DNA of 11,952 nt from Desulfobacula sp. (GTDB lineage: Bacteria > Desulfobacterota > Desulfobacteria > Desulfobacterales > Desulfobacteraceae): the NCBI GenBank assembly GCA_023139225.1, contig JAGLNZ010000660.1, forward strand, positions 1 to 11,952, written 5' to 3'. The notes below the pieces were generated by a model. That model saw nothing but the letters and a program-made list of their open reading frames with translations, ran no database searches and was not told the origin of the DNA. This document shows, one piece after another, positions 1 to 11,688 of the stretch. Both the position numbers and the translations under genes were made by a program. Each line of letters opens with the position of its first letter. Position 1 is the stretch's first letter.

Positions 1-94
1 TTGCCTGAAGTTTTCCTTTTTTTATCCAGTTGGTGACCGTGTTCCTGTGAACATTCAGGTGTTTGGCAATGGTCCCGACTTTAAACATCAGCAT
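1..94 (-). CDS. Partial small helix-turn-helix DNA-binding protein, N-terminus only
   Basis: Reading leftward from ATG at 94-92 gives 31 codons with no stop before the window edge. The peptide starts MLMFKVGTIAKHLNVHRNTV and continues TNWIKKGKLQA. The pattern 'vgtiAkhLnVhrnTVtnWikkGkL' is the usual first helix-turn-helix of MerR-like or excisionase-like (HTH_17) proteins, in which the Trp and Gly-Lys-Leu lead into the wing. A Shine-Dalgarno-like AAAGGA lies at 106-111 and a good promoter at 134-161, which supports ATG94; ATG88 is an alternative start. The gene is divergent from the hydrogenase genes, so it could be a local regulator or an unrelated neighbour. Everything after residue 31 is outside the window, so the family and target cannot be fixed. 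Confidence 0.7.
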   Translation of the reverse strand, partial: MLMFKVGTIAKHLNVHRNTVTNWIKKGKLQA

Positions 95-133
95 GATACA
101 GACTTTCCTTTGAGATGGTTTGCAATCCAAATT

Positions 134-161
134 ACTATACTAAATAAATCCTTTTCGTCAA
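134..161 (-). promoter_or_regulatory. Probable sigma-70 promoter of the helix-turn-helix gene
   Basis: Read on the minus strand, TTGACG (156-161) is followed after 16 bases by TATAGT (134-139). Each hexamer matches the consensus at five of six positions. Transcription would begin near 127 and leave a leader of about 30 bases before ATG94. Confidence 0.55.
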
Positions 162-170
162 CCAAGACAT

Positions 171-182
171 TTGATTTATCAA
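171..182. repeat. Short inverted repeat, possible operator
   Basis: TTGATTTATCAA is a perfect TTGAT/ATCAA inverted repeat with a 2-base centre. The half-sites resemble FNR/CRP-family half-sites, but those normally have a 4-base centre, so I do not assign a regulator. It lies upstream of the -35 box of the minus-strand promoter at 134-161. Confidence 0.3.
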
Positions 183-212
183 TACAGATTACAAAATAGA
201 TTGATATTATCT

Positions 213-231
213 TTTTTATTGACAATAAAAA
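213..231. repeat. Inverted repeat over a TTGACA box, candidate operator/promoter
   Basis: TTTTTATTG-A-CAATAAAAA is a perfect 9-bp inverted repeat around one central base. It contains a consensus -35 hexamer TTGACA at 219-224 on the plus strand. A TATATT at 240-245 follows after 15 bases, which is short of the ideal 17. A plus-strand promoter here would start transcription about 135 bases before the small-subunit gene, and a repressor or activator bound to the palindrome would control it. The promoter assignment is tentative. Confidence 0.35.
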
Positions 232-260
232 TCGAACATTATATTCATAATAAATCATTT

Positions 261-293
261 TTGGCACAATGTAAAGTTGGCACACTTTGCACA
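261..293. repeat. Direct repeats TTGGCACA / TTGGCACA / TTTGCACA
   Basis: TTGGCACA occurs at 261-268 and again at 277-284 (16 bases start to start), followed by the near-copy TTTGCACA at 286-293. Three related octamers within 33 bases upstream of the hydrogenase genes suggest a binding site for a transcription factor. The similarity to a sigma-54 promoter fails on spacing. Confidence 0.35.
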
Positions 294-301
294 AACAAAA
301 C

Positions 302-342
302 GCTCCCGCTAAATACAGGGAGCTTATAAATATAGTATTTAT
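302..342 (+). promoter_or_regulatory. Two small hairpins in the hydrogenase leader region
   Basis: GCTCCC (302-307) pairs with GGGAGC (318-323) around a 10-base loop. Immediately after it, ATAAATA (326-332) and TATTTAT (336-342) form a second inverted repeat around TAG. They lie 45-85 bases before the small-subunit start. They could be RNA leader structures or DNA operators; the sequence alone does not decide. There is no long T-run after the first, so it is not an obvious terminator. Confidence 0.3.
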
Positions 343-374
343 GGAGTAATGATTGATTAGTTTTTAACAGCATC

Positions 375-382
375 AAGGAGGT
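375..382 (+). promoter_or_regulatory. Ribosome binding site that decides the hysB start
   Basis: AAGGAGGT is a near-perfect Shine-Dalgarno sequence. It ends 4-5 bases before GTG387 but overlaps the upstream GTG381, so translation most likely begins at 387. Confidence 0.75.
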
Positions 383-386
383 GCCC

Positions 387-1343
387 GTGAAAGACGAACA
401 AAAGTTGCTTGATGAGCAACAAAAGAAAACAGGGGTTTCCAGAAGAAATTTTTTGAAAACCGTTACTGGAACAGCTGCCGGAATCGGTATTTCTCAGGTG
501 TTCAATCCCGCCCTTGTTTCAGCAATGAAAAAAGCCCTTGAAACCCATCCGGTTCTCTGGATCCAGGGGCAAGGCTGCTCCGGTTGTTCCGTTTCCCTAT
601 TGAACAACGTTGATCCGGCTATTGCCGATGTACTTCTCAAAGTTATCAGCCTTCAGTTCCATCCAACCGTAATGGCAAGTGAAGGTGAAACTGCCCTGGA
701 AAATCTTTACAAGATTGCAGAAGAGTACAAAGGTAAATTCTCTTTGGCGGTTGAAGGTTCCATTCCAATGGCTGCAGATGGAAAATACTGCATTATTGGT
801 GAACTTAACCACAAAGAAATCACTATGGTTGACCTTGTAAAAGATCTGGGCGCAAAAGCAGGAAGTGTTCTTGCTATAGGAACCTGCGCTGCTTATGGCG
901 GAATTCCGGCGGCGGAAGGCAGTGAAACCGGTGCAACCGGTGTAATGGAGTTCTTTAAAACCTATGGCATTAAAACCCCGGTTGTTAATATACCCGGGTG
1001 TCCTTCTCATCCTGACTGGATTGTCGGATCAATTGTTCATCTGCTCACAAAAGGTATCCCTGAACTAGATGATGACGGACGTCCGGTTATCTTCTTTGGA
1101 GAAAATATCCATGACAATTGTCCGCATATAGATGAGTATGATGCCGGTGAAATGTCTGAAAAATTCTCTGATCCAAAAGGCTGCCGTATGGATCTTGGTT
1201 GTAAAGGTCCGGATACATATGCTGACTGTTACAAGCGTAAATGGAACAGCGGCATGAACTGGTGTGTGGACAATGCGGTCTGCATTGGTTGTGTTGAACC
1301 CGGATTCCCGGATTCAGCATCACCTTTCTATGAACCCTCATAA
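387..1343 (+). CDS. hysB: [NiFeSe] hydrogenase small subunit, Tat-exported, three [4Fe-4S] clusters
   Basis: This subunit carries electrons from the active site of the large subunit to the protein surface, and from there to periplasmic partners such as c-type cytochromes. A Tat motif, SRRNFLK, lies at residues 18-24, followed by a hydrophobic stretch and a likely cleavage after VSA near residue 46. Cluster ligands are visible: proximal Cys64, Cys67, Cys167 and Cys205; distal His242, Cys245, Cys266 and Cys272; medial Cys281, Cys293, Cys299 and Cys302. Cys293 (in NWC) stands where standard [NiFe] enzymes have Pro, giving a third [4Fe-4S] cluster, as is typical of the NiFeSe class. I chose GTG387 (318 aa) over GTG381 because AAGGAGGT at 375-382 overlaps 381 but is well spaced from 387. 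There is no C-terminal membrane helix. The large subunit follows after 40 bases. Confidence 0.95.
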   Translation: MKDEQKLLDEQQKKTGVSRRNFLKTVTGTAAGIGISQVFNPALVSAMKKALETHPVLWIQGQGCSGCSVSLLNNVDPAIADVLLKVISLQFHPTVMASEGETALENLYKIAEEYKGKFSLAVEGSIPMAADGKYCIIGELNHKEITMVDLVKDLGAKAGSVLAIGTCAAYGGIPAAEGSETGATGVMEFFKTYGIKTPVVNIPGCPSHPDWIVGSIVHLLTKGIPELDDDGRPVIFFGENIHDNCPHIDEYDAGEMSEKFSDPKGCRMDLGCKGPDTYADCYKRKWNSGMNWCVDNAVCIGCVEPGFPDSASPFYEPS

Positions 1344-1383
1344 CACAAATATCCGAAACTTTTAAACCTGAGGAGGTTTTATT

Positions 1384-2895
1384 ATGGCAGGCTGTAAACC
1401 ACAAGCTGCCCCGGTCGCGGCCGGGAAAAAAATCAAGGTTTCCATTGATCCTATCACCAGGATTGAGGGTCACCTTAAAGCAGAAGTTGAAGTAAAAGAC
1501 GGTGTTGTCGTTGATGCTAGAATACATGGCGGCATGTACCGTGGTTTTGAACAAATATTAACCGGCAGGGACCCAAGGGATGCTACCCAGATTACCCAGA
1601 GAATCTGCGGTGTATGCCCGACTGCCCACGCTACTGCGTCTTCACTTGCACTTGATGATGCATTTAATGTCAAACTCACCAAAAACGGCAGAATTGCAAG
1701 AAACCTGATTTTGGGTGCCAATTTCCTTCAATCCCATATTCTTCATTTCTATCATCTTGCAGCCCTGGACTATGTCAATGGTCCTGATGTTGCTCCTTTT
1801 GTCCCCAGATACGCCAACAATGATGTCCGTGTATCAAAAGACATCAATGACATTGCTGTCGGCCAGTATCTTGAAGCCCTTGAAATGAGAAAAATCTGCC
1901 ATGAAATGGTAGCACTTCTTGGCGGCAAAATGCCGCATGTTCAGGGCGTTGTTGTTGGTGGAACCACAGAGATTCCAACCAGGGAAGCGCTCAATGCCTA
2001 CGCAGAACGTTTCAAAAAAGTCAGAAAATTTATCATGGAAAAATATATCCCCATAGTTTACCTGCTCGCAGGTCCCTATGGTGATCTTCTTAAAACAGGC
2101 GGCGGCTATAAAAACTGTGTGGCATGGGGTGTATTCCCAATGGACGATGCAGGCAACACACTATTGAAAAGAGGTGTTGTCACTGACGGCAAAGATTATC
2201 CGGTTGATCCGGCCCTTATCAAAGAATATGTAAAATATTCCTTTTTTGATGACTCCACAACGGGCTTGAATCCTTCCGAAGGAAGAACGATTCCTGATCC
2301 TTACAAAGACGATGCATACAGTTTTATCAAAGCACCCAGATACAACAACAAACCCCATGAAGCAGGTCCGCTTGCAAGAATGTGGGTCACCAATCCTGAA
2401 TTATCTAAAATCGGCCAGGAAAAACTGGGCGTTAAAAAAATGCGTGATATTGGTGATGCAGCATTCTCTATTCTTGGAAGACATGTTGCAAGAGCGGAAG
2501 AAACCGCTATTGTTGCTGATGCTGTTGAACAATGGCTTTCAGAAGCCGTCCCCGGCAAAGAGACCTTTGTTCCTGCTCCAATTCCGGATTCAGCACATGG
2601 TCTTGGACTTACAGAAGCGCCTCGTGGTTGTCTTCTTCACTACGTTGAAATTAAAGACAAAGTGATTGCTAATTATCAGATCACTTCAGCGACCATCTGG
2701 AATGCCAACCCAATGGATGACATGGGCCAGAGAGGACCAATGGAGCAGGCGCTTATTGGTATTCCGGTTCCTGATCCTGAAAACCCGGTGAATGTGGGGC
2801 GGCTGATCCGCTCCTTTGACCCCTGACTGGGTTGTGCCGTCCACGTGCTGGACGCAGACACTGGTAGAAAAATTAAAGTAGAAATTCCTTTATAA
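1384..2895 (+). CDS. hysA: [NiFeSe] hydrogenase large subunit, selenocysteine-containing (TGA 2824-2826 = Sec)
   Basis: Catalytic subunit for reversible H2 oxidation and production. The N-terminal ligand motif RICGVCPTAH gives Cys75 and Cys78. At the C-terminus ...RSFDP is followed by TGA and then LGCAVHVL, the family motif DP(C/U)xxCxxH, so TGA encodes Sec481 and the second ligand is Cys484. Reading through gives 503 residues ending at TAA 2893-2895. The last 16 residues after His487 (VLDADTGRKIKVEIPL) are the tail expected to be removed by the maturation protease. There is no signal peptide, so export would be with HysB through Tat. The start MAGC resembles the N-terminus of D. vulgaris HysA, reported as a lipoprotein without a classical signal peptide. 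AGGAGG at 1371-1376 sits 7 bases before ATG1384. Ending the gene at TGA would remove Sec481 and Cys484. Confidence 0.95.
2824..2860 (+). promoter_or_regulatory. Selenocysteine codon with bacterial SECIS-like hairpin
   Basis: After the TGA codon (2824-2826), CGTCCA (2838-2843) pairs perfectly with TGGACG (2849-2854) around the loop CGTGC (2844-2848). The stem may extend through a bulged C2837 to G2836-C2855 and T2835-A2856. The loop carries GU at 2845-2846, 19-20 bases after the TGA; in E. coli fdhF the SelB-recognised GU is at almost the same distance. This fits a SECIS element recruiting SelB and Sec-tRNA. It also encodes the conserved AVHVLDA residues, so the hairpin is constrained by protein sequence too. 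Confidence 0.75.
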
Positions 2896-2915
2896 TTTAA
2901 ACTGATTTTTACTAA

Positions 2916-2957
2916 AAACATAAGAGGGGATGAGATTTTTCATCCCCTCTTATGTTT
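2916..2957 (+). terminator. Strong hairpin terminator or attenuator after hysA
   Basis: Bases 2916-2933 and 2940-2957 form a perfect 18-bp inverted repeat around the 6-base loop GATTTT, starting 21 bases after the hysA stop. The 3' arm ends in TTT, and a run of eight T follows at 2969-2976, a little further away than in a textbook terminator. It probably ends or reduces transcription of hysBA before the protease gene, or protects the 3' end of the hysBA message. Confidence 0.75.
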
Positions 2958-3023
2958 GCATTAATTTGTTTTTTTTGGTATCAGCTATATTTTAAATTGT
3001 AATAAATGGAAATTTAAATCAAA

Positions 3024-3491
3024 ATGAAAAAATTATTAGTTTTGGGTGTGGGCAATATCCTTATGATGGATGAAGGAGCCGGTGTTCACGCCATTCGTGA
3101 ATTCTGGAAAGAAAAAGAGAATTACGATGAAACCCTGGTTGATTTTATAGACGGGGGAACCTTTACCCAGGATATATTTTACCTGTTTGAAGAGTATGAA
3201 CAAGTCCTGGTTTTGGATATTGTCAGGGCAGGGCATGAGTCGGGCACCATTTACAGCCTTGATGAAGATGATCTTGTGAAGAATGAAAAACAGATGCTGT
3301 CACTCCATGATGTCGATCTTCTGGACTCCCTTGACATGGCCCAGATGAGGGGCCACAGGCCCAAGTTAAAAGTGGTTGGTATTGAACCTGACAAGATTAA
3401 CTGGGGGACCCAGATGACCCCTGTTCTTGTCAAAGCCCTTCCGTCATTCGTGCAAGTGGCAAAAAAACAGATAGAAAAACTTCTGGAATAA
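3024..3491 (+). CDS. [NiFeSe] hydrogenase C-terminal maturation protease (HyaD/HybD family)
   Basis: A 155-residue endopeptidase of the hydrogenase-specific M52 family. It would cut the large-subunit precursor after His487 once nickel is in place, letting the C-terminus close over the active site. The N-terminal GVGNILMMDEG motif is typical. Predicted nickel-sensing ligands are Glu17, Asp65 and His95, matching Glu16, Asp62 and His93 of E. coli HybD; SLHDVDLLDSL around His95 is the usual context. It is cytoplasmic with no signal peptide. It lies 128 bases after hysA, beyond the hairpin at 2916-2957, so it is made by read-through or from its own promoter. Its Shine-Dalgarno is weak (GGA at 3008-3010), consistent with low, catalytic amounts. 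Its target is inferred from adjacency. Confidence 0.92.
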   Translation: MKKLLVLGVGNILMMDEGAGVHAIREFWKEKENYDETLVDFIDGGTFTQDIFYLFEEYEQVLVLDIVRAGHESGTIYSLDEDDLVKNEKQMLSLHDVDLLDSLDMAQMRGHRPKLKVVGIEPDKINWGTQMTPVLVKALPSFVQVAKKQIEKLLE

Positions 3492-3518
3492 AAACAATCA
3501 ATTCATTTTGAGAAATCA

Positions 3519-4763
3519 ATGAAAACCCAGCTTTTAGACCGGTTCATAGCGTATGTAAAAATCGACACCCAGTCAGATGAAAATTCTGAAACCGTGCCCA
3601 GTACGGACAAACAATTTGATCTGGCAGAACTTCTTGTCAAAGAGCTGACCCAAATGGGCCTTGATGCGGTTGAACTTGATGATCATTGCTATGTCTATGC
3701 CAAATTGGATTCAAATATTCCCCGGGATCACCCGGTCTTTCAAAAAGCACCGAAGCTAGGATTCCTTGCCCACATGGACACCTCTCCTTCCGTAACCGGA
3801 AAAAATGTCAATCCCCAGATTATAAAGGGTTACCGTGGTGGCGACATTAAGTTAAATGACGCCTTCACTATTACGGACAGGGAAAACCCCGTATTAAAAA
3901 GATCCATTGGACATACGATTATCACAACTGACGGGACAACCCTTTTAGGTGCTGACGATAAATCCGGCATTGCCATCATAATGACGGTTGTGAACCACTT
4001 GAAAAACAATCCTTCAATCCTTCATCCGGATATCAGGATCGGATTCACACCGGATGAAGAGATCGGCAGGGGTGCATTACATTTCAATCTTGAAAAATTT
4101 GATGCTGATTTTGCCTACACAGTTGATGGCGGCCCGGCCGGTGAAATTAATAATGAAACTTTCAGTGCTGATGCAGCCGTTATTTCTATTAAAGGAAGGG
4201 ATATTCATCCAGGGGAAGCCAAAGACATCATGGTAAATGCCCTAAAGGTTGCCGCCGATATTATATCACTTTTACCCAAAGACATGACCCCTGAAACCAC
4301 TTCTGATAAAGAGTCCTTTATCCATCCCCATTTCATGGAAGGACAGGTTGGAGGTGCCACAATAAAACTTTTGCTGCGCGCATTTGATACCCAGACTTTA
4401 AAAAAACAAAAAAACACCCTTAAACAAATTATTTCAAAGGTCAGGACAGGTTATCCAAATGCATTGATTTCACTTGAGATATCAGATACCTACCGGAATA
4501 TGAACAAGACCCTCGAAACCGTCCCCCATGTGTCCCGATATCTTGAAGAAGCCGTTAAAAGGACGGGACTTGAGGCAAAATGGGTTCCTGTAAGGGGTGG
4601 AACCGACGGATCAGGTCTTACCGCCATGGGATTACCCTGCCCCAACATCTTTACCGGCGGTTATAATTTCCACGGTCAGACCGAGTGGATCTCCCTGAAT
4701 GTCATGGAAAAATCCTTTGAAACCCTTCTTAAGCTGATACAGGTTTGTATTGAAAAGGCCTGA
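3519..4763 (+). CDS. pepT: Tripeptidase T (peptidase M20B family)
   Basis: Cytoplasmic zinc aminopeptidase that releases the N-terminal residue of tripeptides. At 414 residues it is close to the usual PepT length (about 410). Expected metal and catalytic residues are visible: His85 and Asp87 in HMDTSP, Asp146/Asp147 in GADDKSG, Glu180/Glu181 in TPDEEIGRG, Asp203 in VDGGPAGE and His385 in YNFHGQTEW. The HPGEAKDIMVNA and RGGTDGSGL segments are also typical of PepT. It starts 27 bases after the protease gene on the same strand, so the two may be co-transcribed. The Shine-Dalgarno is weak (TGAG at 3509-3512). It ends only 11 bases before the stop of convergent hypE. There is no known role in hydrogenase assembly; it is probably a housekeeping peptide-recycling gene. 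Confidence 0.95.
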   Translation: MKTQLLDRFIAYVKIDTQSDENSETVPSTDKQFDLAELLVKELTQMGLDAVELDDHCYVYAKLDSNIPRDHPVFQKAPKLGFLAHMDTSPSVTGKNVNPQIIKGYRGGDIKLNDAFTITDRENPVLKRSIGHTIITTDGTTLLGADDKSGIAIIMTVVNHLKNNPSILHPDIRIGFTPDEEIGRGALHFNLEKFDADFAYTVDGGPAGEINNETFSADAAVISIKGRDIHPGEAKDIMVNALKVAADIISLLPKDMTPETTSDKESFIHPHFMEGQVGGATIKLLLRAFDTQTLKKQKNTLKQIISKVRTGYPNALISLEISDTYRNMNKTLETVPHVSRYLEEAVKRTGLEAKWVPVRGGTDGSGLTAMGLPCPNIFTGGYNFHGQTEWISLNVMEKSFETLLKLIQVCIEKA

Positions 4764-4774
4764 ATCTCTTTAAC

Positions 4775-5785
4775 TTAACAAATTCTTGGAAGCTGTTCGC
4801 CTGACAGCATATCAATGATTCTCAAGCCGCCAATATTGGTCTGCAAAAAGACCTTGCCGGGATCTTTGTCTATGACTTCACCTATTATTACTGCATCTTT
4901 ACCAAACTCATCCTGCTGAATAATCTCAAGTATTTTTTGTGCGTCCTTTTGTGGCACAAAAGCAATCAATTTGCCTTCATTGGCGATATATAAGGGATCA
5001 AACCCCAACAGCTCACAGACCCCCTGAACAGGCCCTCTTATGGGCAGAGACTGCTCATCTATTTTAATGGATACCTTAGATTGTGATGCGATTTCATTTA
5101 ATGTAGTGCCAAGGCCTCCCCTTGTGGGGTCACGAAGCACATGAACATCACAATTGGACTGGATAATGGACTGCACCATCTTGTTTAACGGGGCTGAATC
5201 GGTTTTGATATCAGAATCAAACTTTAAGCCTTCCCTTGTACTTAAGACTGTAATCCCGTGATCTGCCAGGGTACCGCTGATGATGATCTTGTCTCCGGGT
5301 TTTGCATTGCTTCCGGAGACATTCACATTGGGAGGAATCACTCCGATACCGGAGGTATTAATAAATATCTTGTCTGCTTTGCCCTTGGGAACAACCTTGG
5401 TATCACCGGTTACAATCTTGACCCCGGCCTTTTTAGCAGCAGCGGCCATGGTTTCAAGGATGAGTTTAAAATCTTTTATGGGCAGTCCTTCTTCAAGAAT
5501 CAGGCCCACGCTGATAAACTCAGGGTTGGCACCGCACATGGAGATATCGTTTATTGTCCCGTTTACAGCCAGATCTCCTATATTCCCGCCGGGAAAAAAG
5601 ATGGGGTCCACCACATAAGAGTCTGTAGAAAAGGCAAGCTTTGTGCCTTTAACATCCAGAACCGCCCCGTCATCCTGTTTTGATAATTCAGGATTTTCAA
5701 ACAACGGCAGGATGATATCGGAAAACATTGAATGGGAAACTTTTCCCCCGGAACCATGATCTAATAATATTTTTTCTTCAGTCAT
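4775..5785 (-). CDS. hypE: Carbamoyl-dehydratase HypE (hydrogenase CN-ligand synthesis)
   Basis: HypE receives a carbamoyl group from HypF on its C-terminal Cys and dehydrates it with ATP to a thiocyanate, the source of the cyanide ligands on the active-site iron. The 336 residues begin with a DHGSGGK motif and a PurM/AIR-synthase-like ATP-binding domain (QDDGAVL, STDSYVVDPIFFPGGNIG). They end in PRIC, which places the required Cys336 at the extreme C-terminus. SelD belongs to the same superfamily but has an N-terminal Cys/Sec active site that is absent here. Start ATG 5785-5783 has AGGAAG just upstream, and hypD ends 20 bases before it. It is the last gene of the hypCFDE operon, and no clear terminator lies between it and pepT. 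Confidence 0.96.
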   Translation of the reverse strand: MTEEKILLDHGSGGKVSHSMFSDIILPLFENPELSKQDDGAVLDVKGTKLAFSTDSYVVDPIFFPGGNIGDLAVNGTINDISMCGANPEFISVGLILEEGLPIKDFKLILETMAAAAKKAGVKIVTGDTKVVPKGKADKIFINTSGIGVIPPNVNVSGSNAKPGDKIIISGTLADHGITVLSTREGLKFDSDIKTDSAPLNKMVQSIIQSNCDVHVLRDPTRGGLGTTLNEIASQSKVSIKIDEQSLPIRGPVQGVCELLGFDPLYIANEGKLIAFVPQKDAQKILEIIQQDEFGKDAVIIGEVIDKDPGKVFLQTNIGGLRIIDMLSGEQLPRIC

Positions 5786-5805: not shown

Positions 5806-6891
5806 CTAACTATATCTGTAAAATGCGGCACAAGACCCTTCACTTGAGACCATACAGGGGCCCACAGGATTCATGGGAGTGCATTTTTTCTTATAAAGGA
5901 CGCATTCTTCCGGTGTTTTCAACCCCATGAGAATTTGTCCGCAGGCGCAGCCTTTTGGTTCAGGTACATCGGGCATATCCATCGCAAATTTTATGGCGGC
6001 ATCAAACCTTTGATACTCTTTTTTCAATTCCATGCCGCTTGAGGGAATTTGTCCGATACCTCTCCAAGAGGCATTGCAAACCTCAAAGACCTGGTTCATG
6101 ATCTGCTTTGCCTTAACATTCCCTGCATGGGATACTGCCCTTGGGTATGCATTTTCAAGGGCGGGTTTTCCCGCCTCATTCTGCTGAATTAAAAGCAGAA
6201 TGGCCTGTAAAATATCAATGGGCTCGAAACCTGCAATCACGGACGGTATATCATATTTTTCAAATGTGCCCCTGTAGGCATCAGTTCCCGTAATCACAGA
6301 GACATGACCCGGAAGGATAAATCCGTCAATCTGAACCCCATCTGTTTCCATCAAGGCGGCAAGGGCCGGTGGTGTAAGTTTATTGGCCGAATAAATAGAA
6401 AAATTATCTAGTTTTCCCTCGATGCCCATGAGAATACCGGCTGCAATGGTGGGAATGGTTGTTTCAAACCCCACGCCGCAAAACACGACTTCTTTATCCT
6501 TATTTTCCCTGGCAATATTGACAGCGTCAAATACCGAATAGACAATTCTCACATCAGCCCCGCAAGCTTTTTCCTTTGTAAGGCTTGAACTTGATCCCGG
6601 CACTTTCATAAGATCGCCAAAGGTTGTCACAATCACGTTCTTAACCCTTGCAAATGCCACAAAAGCATCAATATCCTTCTGGGCGGTCACACAGACAGGA
6701 CAGCCAGGGCCTGAAAGCAGCGTGATCCCTTTGGGCAGGACACTTCTGATACCATGTCTGAAAATGGATGTAGTATGGGTTCCGCAGACCTCCATCAGTC
6801 TTAATTTTTTTTTACTGACAGAATGAATTTTTTTTACAAGATCCCTTGCAAGCGTTCCATCCCTGTATTCTTCAACGTATTTTAAAGCCAT
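5806..6891 (-). CDS. hypD: Hydrogenase maturation factor HypD (Fe-S scaffold)
   Basis: With HypC, HypD forms the scaffold on which the Fe(CN)2CO unit is assembled. The 361-residue protein is of normal length. Conserved motifs are visible: MEVCGTHT with Cys36 and His39, and GPGCPVCVT with Cys64 and Cys67, the likely redox pair near the iron site. A C-terminal Cys cluster (Cys315, Cys317, Cys330, Cys337, Cys346, Cys354) supplies the [4Fe-4S] ligands. GVGFETTIPT and GFEPIDIL are family signatures. ATG 6891-6889 follows the hypF stop by 15 bases, with AGG just upstream, so it is translated in the same operon. No unusual features. Confidence 0.97.
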   Translation of the reverse strand: MALKYVEEYRDGTLARDLVKKIHSVSKKKLRLMEVCGTHTTSIFRHGIRSVLPKGITLLSGPGCPVCVTAQKDIDAFVAFARVKNVIVTTFGDLMKVPGSSSSLTKEKACGADVRIVYSVFDAVNIARENKDKEVVFCGVGFETTIPTIAAGILMGIEGKLDNFSIYSANKLTPPALAALMETDGVQIDGFILPGHVSVITGTDAYRGTFEKYDIPSVIAGFEPIDILQAILLLIQQNEAGKPALENAYPRAVSHAGNVKAKQIMNQVFEVCNASWRGIGQIPSSGMELKKEYQRFDAAIKFAMDMPDVPEPKGCACGQILMGLKTPEECVLYKKKCTPMNPVGPCMVSSEGSCAAFYRYS

Positions 6892-6906: not shown

Positions 6907-9228
6907 TTAATTGGCCTCCAAAGCAGCAGCAACCACTGCCTGACCTAATGAAATTCCACCATCTCCTGTTGGGACCTTTGTGTGTGTATATACCTTAAGA
7001 TTATTTTCTTCAAGGGTCCTGATCATTGAACTTAAGATATAATCATTATTAAACACACCCCCTGAGAGAACAGTTTTTCTGATACCTGTTTCTTTGCTCA
7101 CTTTTATGGCTGCACATGAAAAAGCCTTAACAATTGTATTGTGGAACTTTGAACTGATTTGGCCTAAAGATTCATCCACGCTTAAATCCTCTGCAATCTG
7201 CCGGATACAGGCCATCAAATCAATTTCAAAGGATCTGTCTTCTTCATTGTTTTCACATTGAATAATATCAAACCCATAGACACCATGAGTCAACTCTTTG
7301 TCAGTAATAAATTCCAGCTCCATGGCAGCCTGACTTTCATAGGAAATTTTGTGCCGAATACAAAGCAGGGAGGCAACAGCATCAAACAGCCTTCCTGTAC
7401 TTGATGTCAAAGGAGAATTTAAATTTTTATCCATCATTTGGCATACAAAGGACAGGTTTTCTTTTTCCATCTCTTTAATAAAGGGAATATCCAAAGCAAA
7501 AAAATCAGTTCCAAAGGCCTGATAAAGAACTGAAACTGCCATGCGCCAGGGTTCCAGGACCGCTGCATCACCGCCCGGCATTTTAATATAGGAAAGGTGT
7601 GCTTTTCTTTTAAAAGCGCTTTGTGTTGCCAGAAAAATTTCCCCGCCCCAGATATGGCCGTCTGTTCCATAGCCTGTGCCATCAAGGGTTATGGCAATGA
7701 CTTCTTCGTCAAGATCATTTTCAGCCATACAGGCCGCAGCATGGGCATGGTGATGCTGAACCGCCACCTTTTTTATATTCTTCTGTGCTTTGGCATAATT
7801 GGTGCTCATATAGCCGGGATGCATGTCATGAACGATGATCTCGGGTTGAATATCCAGGATATCTTTTAAATGATCAATGCTGTCCTGGAAAAAATCAAAC
7901 ACCTTCACATTATCAAGATCTCCGATGTGCTGACTTAAAAAGACATAATTATTCCGGGTCAGGCAGACCGTACTCTTAAGCCCTCCCCCACACCCCAGGA
8001 CCTTTGGCATTTTTTTATTTAAAAAAACAGGCAAAGGAGCATATCCCCGGGATCGCCTTATAAATCTTGGCCTGCCCGCCTGAATCCTGGCAATGGAATC
8101 ATCTGCCCGAAAATAAATATCCCTGTTGTGCAATAAAAAATAATCAGCAATATCACAGAATGCATCCAATGCGTCCTCATTATCAATGGAAAGCGGTTCT
8201 CCTGACCGGTTGCCACTGGTCATCACAAGAACATCCGGTCCCTTTTCAAGCAGTAAATAATGCAATGGCGTATAGGGCAGCATGACCCCGAAACTTTTGT
8301 TCAAAGGTGACACATCCGGTGCAACTCCTTTAATATTCCCTTCCTTGATATTTTTCTTGTTTAAAAGGACAATGGGCCTGTGATAGGATTCCAAAAGTTT
8401 CTTTTCTTCGGGACTTACATGGACATGTTCAAACAAATGGGATGTGGATTGGGCCATCAGGGCAAAGGGTTTATGGGGGCGTGATTTTCTTTGCCTTAAC
8501 GTTTTCACGGCCTCCTTGCTGGAGGCATCACAGGCCAGATGGAACCCGCCAAGGCCCTTTACCGCAACAATCTTACCTTGGCTCAAATATCGCGCTGCAA
8601 GGGTTACGGCCTCTTTTGAATCCGAATCGATCCTTTTACCCTTATTGTCTGTTAAAAAAACGTGTGGACCGCATTCAGGGCATGCGTTGGGCTGGGCATG
8701 AAATCTTCTGTTTAACGGATCATCATACTCCTGCTGACAGAGCGGACACATCTTAAATAGTTTCATGGATGTTTTAGGCCGGTCATAGGGGATATCCTCA
8801 ATAATGGTATATCTTGGACCGCAATTGGTACAATTGATAAACGGATATTCATACCGCCTGTCGCAAGGATTTTTCATTTCAGCCAGGCAGTCCGGACAAA
8901 TACTTACATCAGGGGAAATTAAAGTCGTGCGGCTGCTTGAAGACTTACTCTTCACAATTTGAAACAAAGAAAAATTTTGAAGCTTGGCATCAAAGGATTC
9001 AATCCTTGTCACCGAAGCAAGCAAAGGGTTTTTATCATAAATATCATTGGTAAAACTTTCAATATTTTTAAGCGTCCCTTCCACAATAACGAGCACACCG
9101 CCACAAGTATTGGAGACCTCACCTTTGAGATGATATTTTTTGGCCAGGACAAATAAAAAAGGCCGGAAACCAACACCTTGAACCACTCCGCTGATTTCCA
9201 GCCTTTTTGCTGCTATCGAAATTTTCAT
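6907..9228 (-). CDS. hypF: Carbamoyltransferase HypF
   Basis: HypF turns carbamoyl phosphate and ATP into carbamoyl-adenylate and passes the carbamoyl group to HypE. All domains appear intact in 773 residues. An acylphosphatase-like N-terminus carries GVVQGVGFRPF at 15-24. Two zinc-finger halves follow (Cys111/114 with Cys133/136; Cys161/164 with Cys183/186). A YrdC-like nucleotide-binding domain spans about 205-390, with KGLGGFHLACDA at 224-235 and MTSGNRSGEP at 336-345. The Kae1-like C-terminal domain contains HHHAHAAACM (492-501) and DGTGYGTDGHIWGGE (516-530). Its ATG lies 6 bases after the hypC stop and lacks a strong Shine-Dalgarno, which suggests translational coupling to hypC. Confidence 0.97.
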   Translation of the reverse strand: MKISIAAKRLEISGVVQGVGFRPFLFVLAKKYHLKGEVSNTCGGVLVIVEGTLKNIESFTNDIYDKNPLLASVTRIESFDAKLQNFSLFQIVKSKSSSSRTTLISPDVSICPDCLAEMKNPCDRRYEYPFINCTNCGPRYTIIEDIPYDRPKTSMKLFKMCPLCQQEYDDPLNRRFHAQPNACPECGPHVFLTDNKGKRIDSDSKEAVTLAARYLSQGKIVAVKGLGGFHLACDASSKEAVKTLRQRKSRPHKPFALMAQSTSHLFEHVHVSPEEKKLLESYHRPIVLLNKKNIKEGNIKGVAPDVSPLNKSFGVMLPYTPLHYLLLEKGPDVLVMTSGNRSGEPLSIDNEDALDAFCDIADYFLLHNRDIYFRADDSIARIQAGRPRFIRRSRGYAPLPVFLNKKMPKVLGCGGGLKSTVCLTRNNYVFLSQHIGDLDNVKVFDFFQDSIDHLKDILDIQPEIIVHDMHPGYMSTNYAKAQKNIKKVAVQHHHAHAAACMAENDLDEEVIAITLDGTGYGTDGHIWGGEIFLATQSAFKRKAHLSYIKMPGGDAAVLEPWRMAVSVLYQAFGTDFFALDIPFIKEMEKENLSFVCQMMDKNLNSPLTSSTGRLFDAVASLLCIRHKISYESQAAMELEFITDKELTHGVYGFDIIQCENNEEDRSFEIDLMACIRQIAEDLSVDESLGQISSKFHNTIVKAFSCAAIKVSKETGIRKTVLSGGVFNNDYILSSMIRTLEENNLKVYTHTKVPTGDGGISLGQAVVAAALEAN

Positions 9229-9234
9229 AAAAAC

Positions 9235-9486
9235 TTATGGATGGTCGTTCAAACCATTTGCCTGCCGGGCATCTGCTGCAAGGATATTGCGCATGTCTTC
9301 CAGAGTTTGAAGCGCTGCCTCTTCATCAATCTTATTGATGGCAAATCCTGCATGGACAATGACATAATCCCCTATTTTTATATCATCCATAAGCATGATG
9401 CTGGTTTCCCGGATCACACCATCCACATCCACTTTGGCAATAGTATCATTGATTTCAATAATTTTGGACGGAACTGCTAAACACAT
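9235..9486 (-). CDS. hypC: Hydrogenase maturation chaperone HypC
   Basis: Small chaperone (83 aa) that carries the iron centre with HypD and delivers it to the large-subunit precursor. The N-terminal MCLAVPSKI motif with essential Cys2 fixes the start at ATG 9486-9484; a longer in-frame start at 9534 would add 16 residues and hide Cys2, so I reject it. GDYVIVHAGFAI with His45 is the second family signature. AGAGGAATAGG lies upstream of the chosen ATG. It is the first gene of hypCFDE, with a promoter at 9523-9550. It could belong to the HybG branch, but with a single hydrogenase nearby HypC is the simplest name. Confidence 0.95.
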   Translation of the reverse strand: MCLAVPSKIIEINDTIAKVDVDGVIRETSIMLMDDIKIGDYVIVHAGFAINKIDEEAALQTLEDMRNILAADARQANGLNDHP

Positions 9487-9576: not shown

Positions 9577-11688
9577 TCATGAGTCTTTATTCCAAAACAA
9601 TTGATTAATAGTGTCTACATAAACCTTATTTGGGCATGGTTTGGAAAGATAGGCAATATTTTGATGCCTCTTCAATTTATCTATTGATTCCAAAAACTCC
9701 AGATTGCCGGAAATAAACAGGATGGGGGTTGTCTTGTCTTTTTTGCGGATCAGTTGATATACATCCATACCGTTCATTCTACCCGGAAGCTGGTAATCCA
9801 GGCTTACCAGGTCATATTTATTCCTGGAAAACAAATCAATGGCCATTTGTCCATTCATTGCAAGATCAACCCTGTGATTACAAGGACCCTGCGATAATAT
9901 CCGGTATTGTACATTGGAAATTGCAGGCTCATCCTCTACCAGAAGAATATATTTTCCAGTCGCAAGTTGTGATTTTCGAAGGTTAGTTTTTCCCTTCCTT
10001 AATAATCTTTGCCTGATAACCGGTAAATGGATGAAAAAAGTTGTACCGATATTGACTTGGGATTTTAAAGTAACTTTCCCATTATGCTGTTCTATATATC
10101 TTTTTACATTGGACATTCCATAACCGGTTCCTTTTATATTTCGTGCATAAGAACCGGTTAAGTCATTACCACCTTTCAGTGTAAAAGAAGGTTCAAAAAT
10201 ATCCGTTATATTCTCCAGGGGTATCCCACACCCGTTATCCTCTATTTCAAAACAGATATGATTGTCATTGCAGGCGGTTCTGACAATTATTCTTGCATTT
10301 CGGGTTTTGCTCAAAGCATGAATCGAATTTTGCAGGAGGTTTACCAAAGCATGCTCTATCATTCCCGGATCAGCTAATAAATCCGGAAGCCCCTGGTGAT
10401 ATTCTTTGATCAGTTCAATCTCTTCCAGATCTTTTTTTAAAAGATTCATGGCAAAATCCATGACATCATTGATCTTCAAGAATTCATGTCTGGGTTCCTG
10501 ATTTTTTGCAAAGGCGGTCAAATTTTTTGTTAAATTCTTACCCCGAATGGTTTGCCCGTATATTAACTCAAGTGTTTTTTTTATTTCCTCATCCCTGCAA
10601 TCCAGAAGAGCAAGTTCCGTATTGCCCATGATAACGCCTAAAATATTATTAAAATCATGAGCCATTTTACCGGCAACTCTTCCCACCAGGGCATGTTTTT
10701 CCTGTTCTGCTGCAAGCTGATTTACCCTGTTCTTTTCAATTTGGGCAAGCTTTTTTTCAGTGATATCCCTCCAGGTGGTATGAATAACCTGATTGCCTTC
10801 TTCTTTCGAAACCACCGTTAATAAGACTTCAACCGGAAAAATATCTCCATTAGCTCTGACATGGTCCCATTCAAATCTATGGCTCCCGTTTTCAAAAGTA
10901 ATCTCTATCATTTCAACGGCTTTTGTGAATGAATCTCTCCCATCGGGCTGAAACCTGGGCGACAGATCAGAAGGGTGTGTTTGAAGCATCAGTTCTTTGT
11001 TGTCATAGCCCAGCATATCAAGAGTTGCCTGGTTACAATCAATAAATTTCTGATTTTTGATGATGAGTAAGGCATCTTTGGATTTTTCAAACAATATTCG
11101 ATATCTTTTTTCACTTTTATGCAATCTTTCTTCGGCCTGTTTCCGATCAATGGCCACTGCAATCTGGTCTGAGACGGAGATCAAAAGATCCAGATCTTTT
11201 TTTGTATAACACTCAGGATCTGTATAACTTTGTACGGTAACAACCCCTATGATTTCACCTTTGACCCTTAATGGAACCCCCATCCAAATGACTGGCACCG
11301 GGCCCCAGACGCCGTTTTGTGATGCTCTTTGCCGCAATTCTTCTTTTTTTAACAGTAAGGGGTTTTTTTTTAAGACAACCATCCCGGTTAAAGAATTATG
11401 GGTATCAAAGTCAGTGATCGGGCCGAAATCATCATCTTCAATGTCCACGTGATAGGGGAAAAATAATGTTTTTCCTTTTTGGTTCACCATGGCAATGAAA
11501 AAATTTGTAACATCCATCACCCGCCCCAATGAATGATGAATCAAACGATAGAGATCCTCAAGACTTGACGTTGTATTTACAGCATTTGCAATACCATAAA
11601 GGGTTTGAGTCACCTGATTTGCATACTGCAATTCATCTGTTTTTATATCTTTTTTCTGCACATTGAAGTTGCTCTGCTGTTTGATCAT
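9577..11688 (-). CDS. Cytoplasmic hybrid sensor histidine kinase (GAF-PAS-HisKA-HATPase-REC)
   Basis: A 703-residue signalling protein with no transmembrane segment or signal peptide, so it probably senses an internal cue. Domain order: GAF (about 28-183), PAS (about 193-315, FEKSKDALLIIKNQKFIDCN), short coiled link, phosphoacceptor H-box MAHDFNNILG with His344, and ATPase domain with N-box Asn454 (NLLQNSIHAL), G1 box DNGCG at 484-488 and G2 box KGTGYGMSN at 519-527. A C-terminal receiver domain (about 579-700) has acidic pair Glu585/Asp586, phosphoacceptor Asp631 and Lys683. All key residues are present, so it should be active. It carries no DNA-binding output, so a partner must lie elsewhere. 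It is co-directional with hypCFDE 90 bases downstream; a role in hydrogenase control is only a guess from position. The start follows TTAAGGT at moderate distance. Confidence 0.93.
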   Translation of the reverse strand: MIKQQSNFNVQKKDIKTDELQYANQVTQTLYGIANAVNTTSSLEDLYRLIHHSLGRVMDVTNFFIAMVNQKGKTLFFPYHVDIEDDDFGPITDFDTHNSLTGMVVLKKNPLLLKKEELRQRASQNGVWGPVPVIWMGVPLRVKGEIIGVVTVQSYTDPECYTKKDLDLLISVSDQIAVAIDRKQAEERLHKSEKRYRILFEKSKDALLIIKNQKFIDCNQATLDMLGYDNKELMLQTHPSDLSPRFQPDGRDSFTKAVEMIEITFENGSHRFEWDHVRANGDIFPVEVLLTVVSKEEGNQVIHTTWRDITEKKLAQIEKNRVNQLAAEQEKHALVGRVAGKMAHDFNNILGVIMGNTELALLDCRDEEIKKTLELIYGQTIRGKNLTKNLTAFAKNQEPRHEFLKINDVMDFAMNLLKKDLEEIELIKEYHQGLPDLLADPGMIEHALVNLLQNSIHALSKTRNARIIVRTACNDNHICFEIEDNGCGIPLENITDIFEPSFTLKGGNDLTGSYARNIKGTGYGMSNVKRYIEQHNGKVTLKSQVNIGTTFFIHLPVIRQRLLRKGKTNLRKSQLATGKYILLVEDEPAISNVQYRILSQGPCNHRVDLAMNGQMAIDLFSRNKYDLVSLDYQLPGRMNGMDVYQLIRKKDKTTPILFISGNLEFLESIDKLKRHQNIAYLSKPCPNKVYVDTINQLFWNKDS

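Follow-up and report, generated by a model that had tools for sequence, protein, structure and literature searches.

The window, i.e., the whole stretch of 11,952 nucleotides analyzed here, is best explained as encoding HysAB of a sulfate reducer resembling Desulfobacula, a periplasmic [NiFeSe] hydrogenase in which the large subunit would receive selenocysteine at residue 481 from a UGA codon through a SECIS element and SelB, and would be processed after His487 (probability about 0.96). The hysA frame opens at ATG 1384, reads through ...SFDP to 2823, meets TGA at 2824-2826, continues as LGCAVHVLDADTGRKIKVEIPL and closes at TAA 2893-2895, giving a product of 503 aa, against 480 aa if it ended at the TGA. 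The motif around codon 481 is DPULGCAVH, with U for the TGA, which thus stands at the first position of UxxCxxH. The first-pass annotation had taken this in-frame TGA of a hydrogenase large subunit for a selenocysteine codon that adds 23 residues, Sec481 and Cys484 among them, to a protein otherwise cut short. Reading codon by codon confirmed the in-frame TGA together with its coordinates and residue numbers, and the standard gene call indeed stops there, losing Sec481, Cys484 and the cleavage tail. The selenocysteine interpretation is very probably correct: we infer this residue from the agreement of HysA identity, the conserved TGA, a SECIS-type hairpin, tRNA-Sec(UCA), selA and selD. Features of the locus are collected in Table 1.

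Table 1. Features of the hys locus and, in the last line, the GCA-type gene pairs found in other genomes
Feature	Position	Strand	Basis
hysB, [NiFeSe] hydrogenase small subunit	381..1343	+	NF045520 538.2 bits (cut-off 470); Pfam PF14720 and PF01058
hysA, large subunit, 503 aa with the TGA read as Sec	1384..2895	+	NF045518 847 bits (cut-off 780)
TGA, probable selenocysteine codon 481	2824..2826	+	Single in-frame TGA of frame 1384-2892, conserved in relatives
SECIS-type hairpin	2838..2854	+	Comparison across relatives; published constraints
Codons of His487 and Val488, predicted maturation protease cut between them	2842..2847	+	Ends of crystallised chains
Hairpin, 19 pairs, terminator-like, between hysA and protease gene	2916..2957	+	Pattern scan
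[NiFeSe] hydrogenase maturation protease	3024..3491	+	NF045519 222.6 bits (cut-off 190)
hypE	4775..5785	-	TIGR02124 467.4 bits (cut-off 251.6)
hypD	5806..6891	-	TIGR00075 471.9 bits (cut-off 192.8)
hypF	6907..9228	-	TIGR00143 827.9 bits (cut-off 466.1)
hypC	9235..9486	-	TIGR00074 91.2 bits (cut-off 48)
Hybrid sensor kinase (GAF, PAS, HisKA, HATPase, receiver) adjoining hypC	9577-11688	-	Pfam domains
GCA tRNA-Sec-like gene with second selB	L138:795-4425 (G099), L139:1147-3223, L140:1503-3592

As judged from its sequence, the 503-aa product is a [NiFeSe] hydrogenase large subunit, HysA. The two subunits and their dedicated protease each score above the curated cut-offs for this enzyme, and the Pfam PF00374 score of HysA rises from 398.5 to 419.8 bits when the read-through is included. 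When the read-through product was aligned with chains of known structure, [NiFeSe] chains proved the closest; the first-pass annotation had suggested an alignment with the HysA of D. vulgaris and D. baculatum. The best 11 solved sequences, from 4kl8 and 1cc1 down to 6z8o, score 688-723 bits and the next one 343.8. Nine of these 11 chains were deposited under the name [NiFeSe]; the entries 4kl8 and 1cc1 are titled simply hydrogenase large subunits and are taken by us to be [NiFeSe] enzymes as well. The structures 1cc1 and 4kl8, presumably from Desulfomicrobium baculatum, and 2wpn and 5jsu, presumably from Desulfovibrio vulgaris, show full-length similarity to HysA (707-723 bits for these four) and resemble it in the position of selenocysteine and in a mature end after His. 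Of the five solved chains with an alignment shown, four have X opposite residue 481 and the fifth has C. The crystallised mature chains of 4kl8, 1cc1 and 2wpn stop at the residue aligned to His487, whereas 5jsu and 5jsh extend further. A loop near residues 148-160 is shorter in HysA than in 1cc1 in the alignment, whereas the active-site motif is without differences.

A scan of genome contigs for HysA relatives found 293 stretches, of which the best 80 were kept and gave 79 loci. Among these, the codon at the site is TGA in 55 and TGC or TGT in 21, and the site lies beyond the contig end in three. The 58 close loci within this best 80 of 293 (L018-L074 and L079, 61-92% identity to HysA) comprise 55 with TGA, none with Cys and three (L067, L070 and L079) whose contigs end before the site, so the TGA of hysA is more than chance. 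One of the relatives with TGA in HysA is a cultured species, Desulfospira joergensenii (L037). Both xxCxxH and the tail are conserved behind the TGA in these 55 loci, and the 21 TGC/TGT loci, from the same best 80, show at most 45% identity to HysA. In a sample of 395 genomes of the phylum, the organism's own was the only one to pass the HysA cut-off (780); 12 other full-length matches, at 686-757 bits and hence below it, have one internal TGA each. More rows with one internal TGA appeared among the 395 genomes (e.g., G040, G325, G269, G225 and G306), which may be ordinary gene ends.

A 6-bp stem (2838-2843/2849-2854) closes a 5-nt loop, CGUGC (2844-2848), 17 nt behind the TGA. Bacterial SECIS elements are described as having a loop of 3-9 nt, an upper stem of 4-16 bp, a G within loop positions 1-2, a distance of 16-37 nt from the UGA and an energy of -7.5 kcal/mol or lower (PMC13188914). 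The hairpin falls within all of these bounds, with its loop G second and an energy of -11.2 to -15.5 kcal/mol in cuts of 40-49 nt. The pair N1-N2 within the loop, common and not universal according to the same source (PMC13188914), is absent from the hysA hairpin (C and C). When folded as a single sequence, the hairpin was not more stable than shuffles (z of -0.27, +0.20, -0.95 and -0.72), and comparison among relatives was therefore used instead.

Codon entropy was measured in 68 TGA-bearing sequences (the window, 55 relatives and the 12 phylum matches) over the 221 degenerate codon columns in which at least 90% of rows share one residue. The median was 1.48, and only codons 481, 482, 487 and 488 fell under 0.15. 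The low value at codon 481 is trivial because the rows were selected by TGA. The others are frozen synonymous choices: CTG in 64 of the 64 rows with Leu482, CAC for His487 in 68 of 68, and GTG for Val488 in 67 of 68. We chose 22 rows out of the window and its 55 relatives; none of them breaks any of the six stem pairs, and five of the six are invariant. The remaining pair, 2841/2851, connects position three of a Val codon to position one of an Asp, His or Asn codon and varies without breaking in these rows (CG 12, GC 9, UA 1). Judged by eye, the tree implies roughly two double changes for this pair, so the covariation support is real but thin. All five inner pairs occur in 68, and CACGUG in 69, of 70 TGA segments, compared with four and one of 40 Cys segments, several of them from one locus; the Cys set is no clean control for CACGUG because it is more distant and frequently replaces the Val of HysA by Leu or a stop codon. 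Taken together, the fixed choice of synonymous codons and a single compensatory pair support a SECIS-type hairpin behind the hysA TGA. Two further helices were dropped: a 3-bp helix beside the UGA suggested by RNAalifold, in which one pair is broken in two of the 22 rows, and a lower helix between columns 34-36 and 46-48, paired in only 25.8% of cells.

The machinery for selenocysteine was searched for in the organism's own assembly (3,537,278 bases, 752 contigs, 77% complete), since selA, selB, selC and selD had all been predicted to lie elsewhere in the genome. Three of the four are present: a single tRNA-Sec above cut-off (selC; 73.2 bits, anticodon UCA, and G73 as read from the sequence), selA (599.4 bits) and selD (364.1 bits). 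The fourth, selB, gave no match above cut-off in this 77%-complete assembly. Across the genus, selB is above cut-off in 23 of 26 genomes, and the three misses, the organism's own included, are 77, 81 and 68% complete; the simplest explanation for the absence of the gene here is the incomplete assembly, and to judge from the family the organism probably possesses it. Hits of roughly 400 aa that the selB model gave in the genus were taken as probable EF-Tu from their length and spacing and set aside. The selD gene itself has one in-frame TGA, in SGUAAK (L013:1528-1530, C231), and is thus a second likely site of selenocysteine in this genome; the hairpin behind that TGA has a raw folding energy of -16.9 kcal/mol.

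An anticodon UCA could also belong to a tRNA of another kind. A selC* tRNA-Cys(UCA), served by selB* and cysS* genes of its own, might insert cysteine at the UGA at 2824-2826, a reading to which we give very little credence. Cysteine does occupy this site in most NiFe hydrogenases, and the system has been described for some Desulfobacterales, where selC*, built like tRNA-Sec and charged with cysteine, has UCA in some cases and comes with its own selB* and cysS* (PMC7609411). A search of the organism's genome and 25 others of the genus, covering tRNA-Sec-like genes (E up to 1e-6) and selB, nevertheless argues against it. One tRNA-Sec was above cut-off in 22 of the 26 genomes and a second such gene in none, the own genome being 77% complete, and none of the 26 had two selB matches above cut-off. 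The same searches do detect selC* of the GCA type with a second selB in another family. Furthermore, selC* is described with U73 (PMC7609411), whereas the organism's own tRNA-Sec has G73. That HysA truly ends at Pro480 as a broken or shortened protein, or that the TGA is an assembly error for TGC or TGT, is hardly credible: the standard call does end at this codon and the assembly is fragmented into 752 contigs, but TGA stands at the site in 55 of 58 close loci of other assemblies, with three uncovered (best 80 of 293 stretches), and the tail behind it is conserved and RNA-constrained.

For insertion of selenocysteine, the favored reading, the course of events would follow what is known of the enzyme family. 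The hairpin directly behind the UGA would recruit SelB loaded with Sec-tRNA(UCA), and selenocysteine would be inserted at 481 in place of termination. By analogy, Sec481 and Cys484 would be ligands of a Ni-Fe center assembled by Hyp proteins, a dedicated protease would cleave after His487 and take off 16 residues, and HysAB would be exported to the periplasm.

The N-terminus of HysB is twin-arginine-like by eye (RRNFLK), and hysB may start at GTG 387 instead of GTG 381. A T-rich stretch follows the 19-pair hairpin behind hysA, which suggests partial termination within the hys cluster; the pattern scan counted nine terminator-like sites in positions 1-5000 of the window versus 5.3 (sd 2.5) in shuffles. 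After the protease gene come a peptidase T gene and then, on the opposite strand, hypE, hypD, hypF and hypC. The adjoining hybrid sensor kinase is a possible regulator. A sigma-54-like site before hysB, suspected by eye, was abandoned: the consensus pattern gave no match in the window and none in the 49 relatives, out of 55, that were tested. The hysA product is the sole PF00374 hydrogenase found in the incomplete (77%) assembly.

Several observations in other genomes are regarded as leads, not findings. Two genomes, G099 and G213, have a Cys-coded HysA paralogue (DPCLACAVH, TGT; L131 and L130) besides a TGA-coded HysA. In a tree of 57 hydrogenase rows of our choice, for which the program issued a warning about long branches joining each other, these copies fall within the HysA clade (base 100/99, starred), while their inner placement (92/94) is not firm. 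Selenocysteine is therefore not indispensable to the HysA family, and the two forms in one genome are possibly a pair for selenium-rich and selenium-poor conditions. Three genomes of a single family, f48 (G099, G213 and G132), each have an additional tRNA-Sec-like gene, its anticodon GCA, beside a second selB; in G213 the anticodon was read from the loop because ARAGORN gave no call. The gene of G099 is followed by T and CCA, which fits the selC* tRNA-Cys as reviewed (PMC7609411), and directly upstream of the pair lies the Cys-coded hysA, with UGU at the Sec site. It is conceivable, though improbable, that a dedicated pathway of the SelB type supplies this hydrogenase at a sense codon with its Ni-ligand Cys, or even with Sec; if so, the selC*/selB* system would have a client. 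More prosaically, the genes may be neighbors by chance, in keeping with the fact that in G213 and G132 no hydrogenase gene is listed next to the corresponding pair.

Other combinations also occur. G063, a single contig 99% complete, has a TGA-coded HysA, a UCA tRNA-Sec and selB; it also has a GCA selC*-like tRNA (L141:2632-2724), with no second selB above cut-off, and selA was not found there with TIGR00474. TGA stands at the same site (DPUMACAVH) in two hydrogenases about 380 bits from HysA (L122:709-2328 and L124), which the 57-row tree places beside a long branch and not within the HysA clade. The genome of the latter, G267, has tRNA-Sec, selA and selB above cut-off, and in that of the former, G328, neither selA nor tRNA-Sec was found above cut-off. 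C-terminal PF00374 pieces with one internal TGA (G213:C164:53-331, G099:C5:106076-106369 and G132:C31:80793-81029) perhaps represent another type of selenocysteine hydrogenase.

The hysA gene of the window is one more case of a well-known enzyme family, and such genes are already described in this bacterial group. [NiFeSe] homologues cut off in annotation at the opal codon, with SECIS elements behind it, have been reported, in a table that includes Desulfotignum, Desulfobacter and Desulfobacterium species (PMC4730141), and Desulfobacterium autotrophicum has hysAB and at least 31 selenoproteins (PMC2702500). The HysAB of Desulfobacterium autotrophicum HRM2, Desulfobacter postgatei and Desulfotignum phosphitoxidans is of the same enzyme type and bacterial group (PMC4730141; PMC2702500). 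The hysAB genes of HRM2 are clustered with mvhA2DG and hdrA1 (PMC2702500), whereas those of the window lie near the peptidase T gene and hypEDFC. For the organism, the annotation of a hydrogenase is corrected, as the standard call deprives it of its active-site Sec, Cys484 and cleavage tail. For the gene, an RNA hairpin appears to dictate which codons are used, and one amino acid (Asp, His or Asn), within the tail that would probably be cleaved off by the protease.
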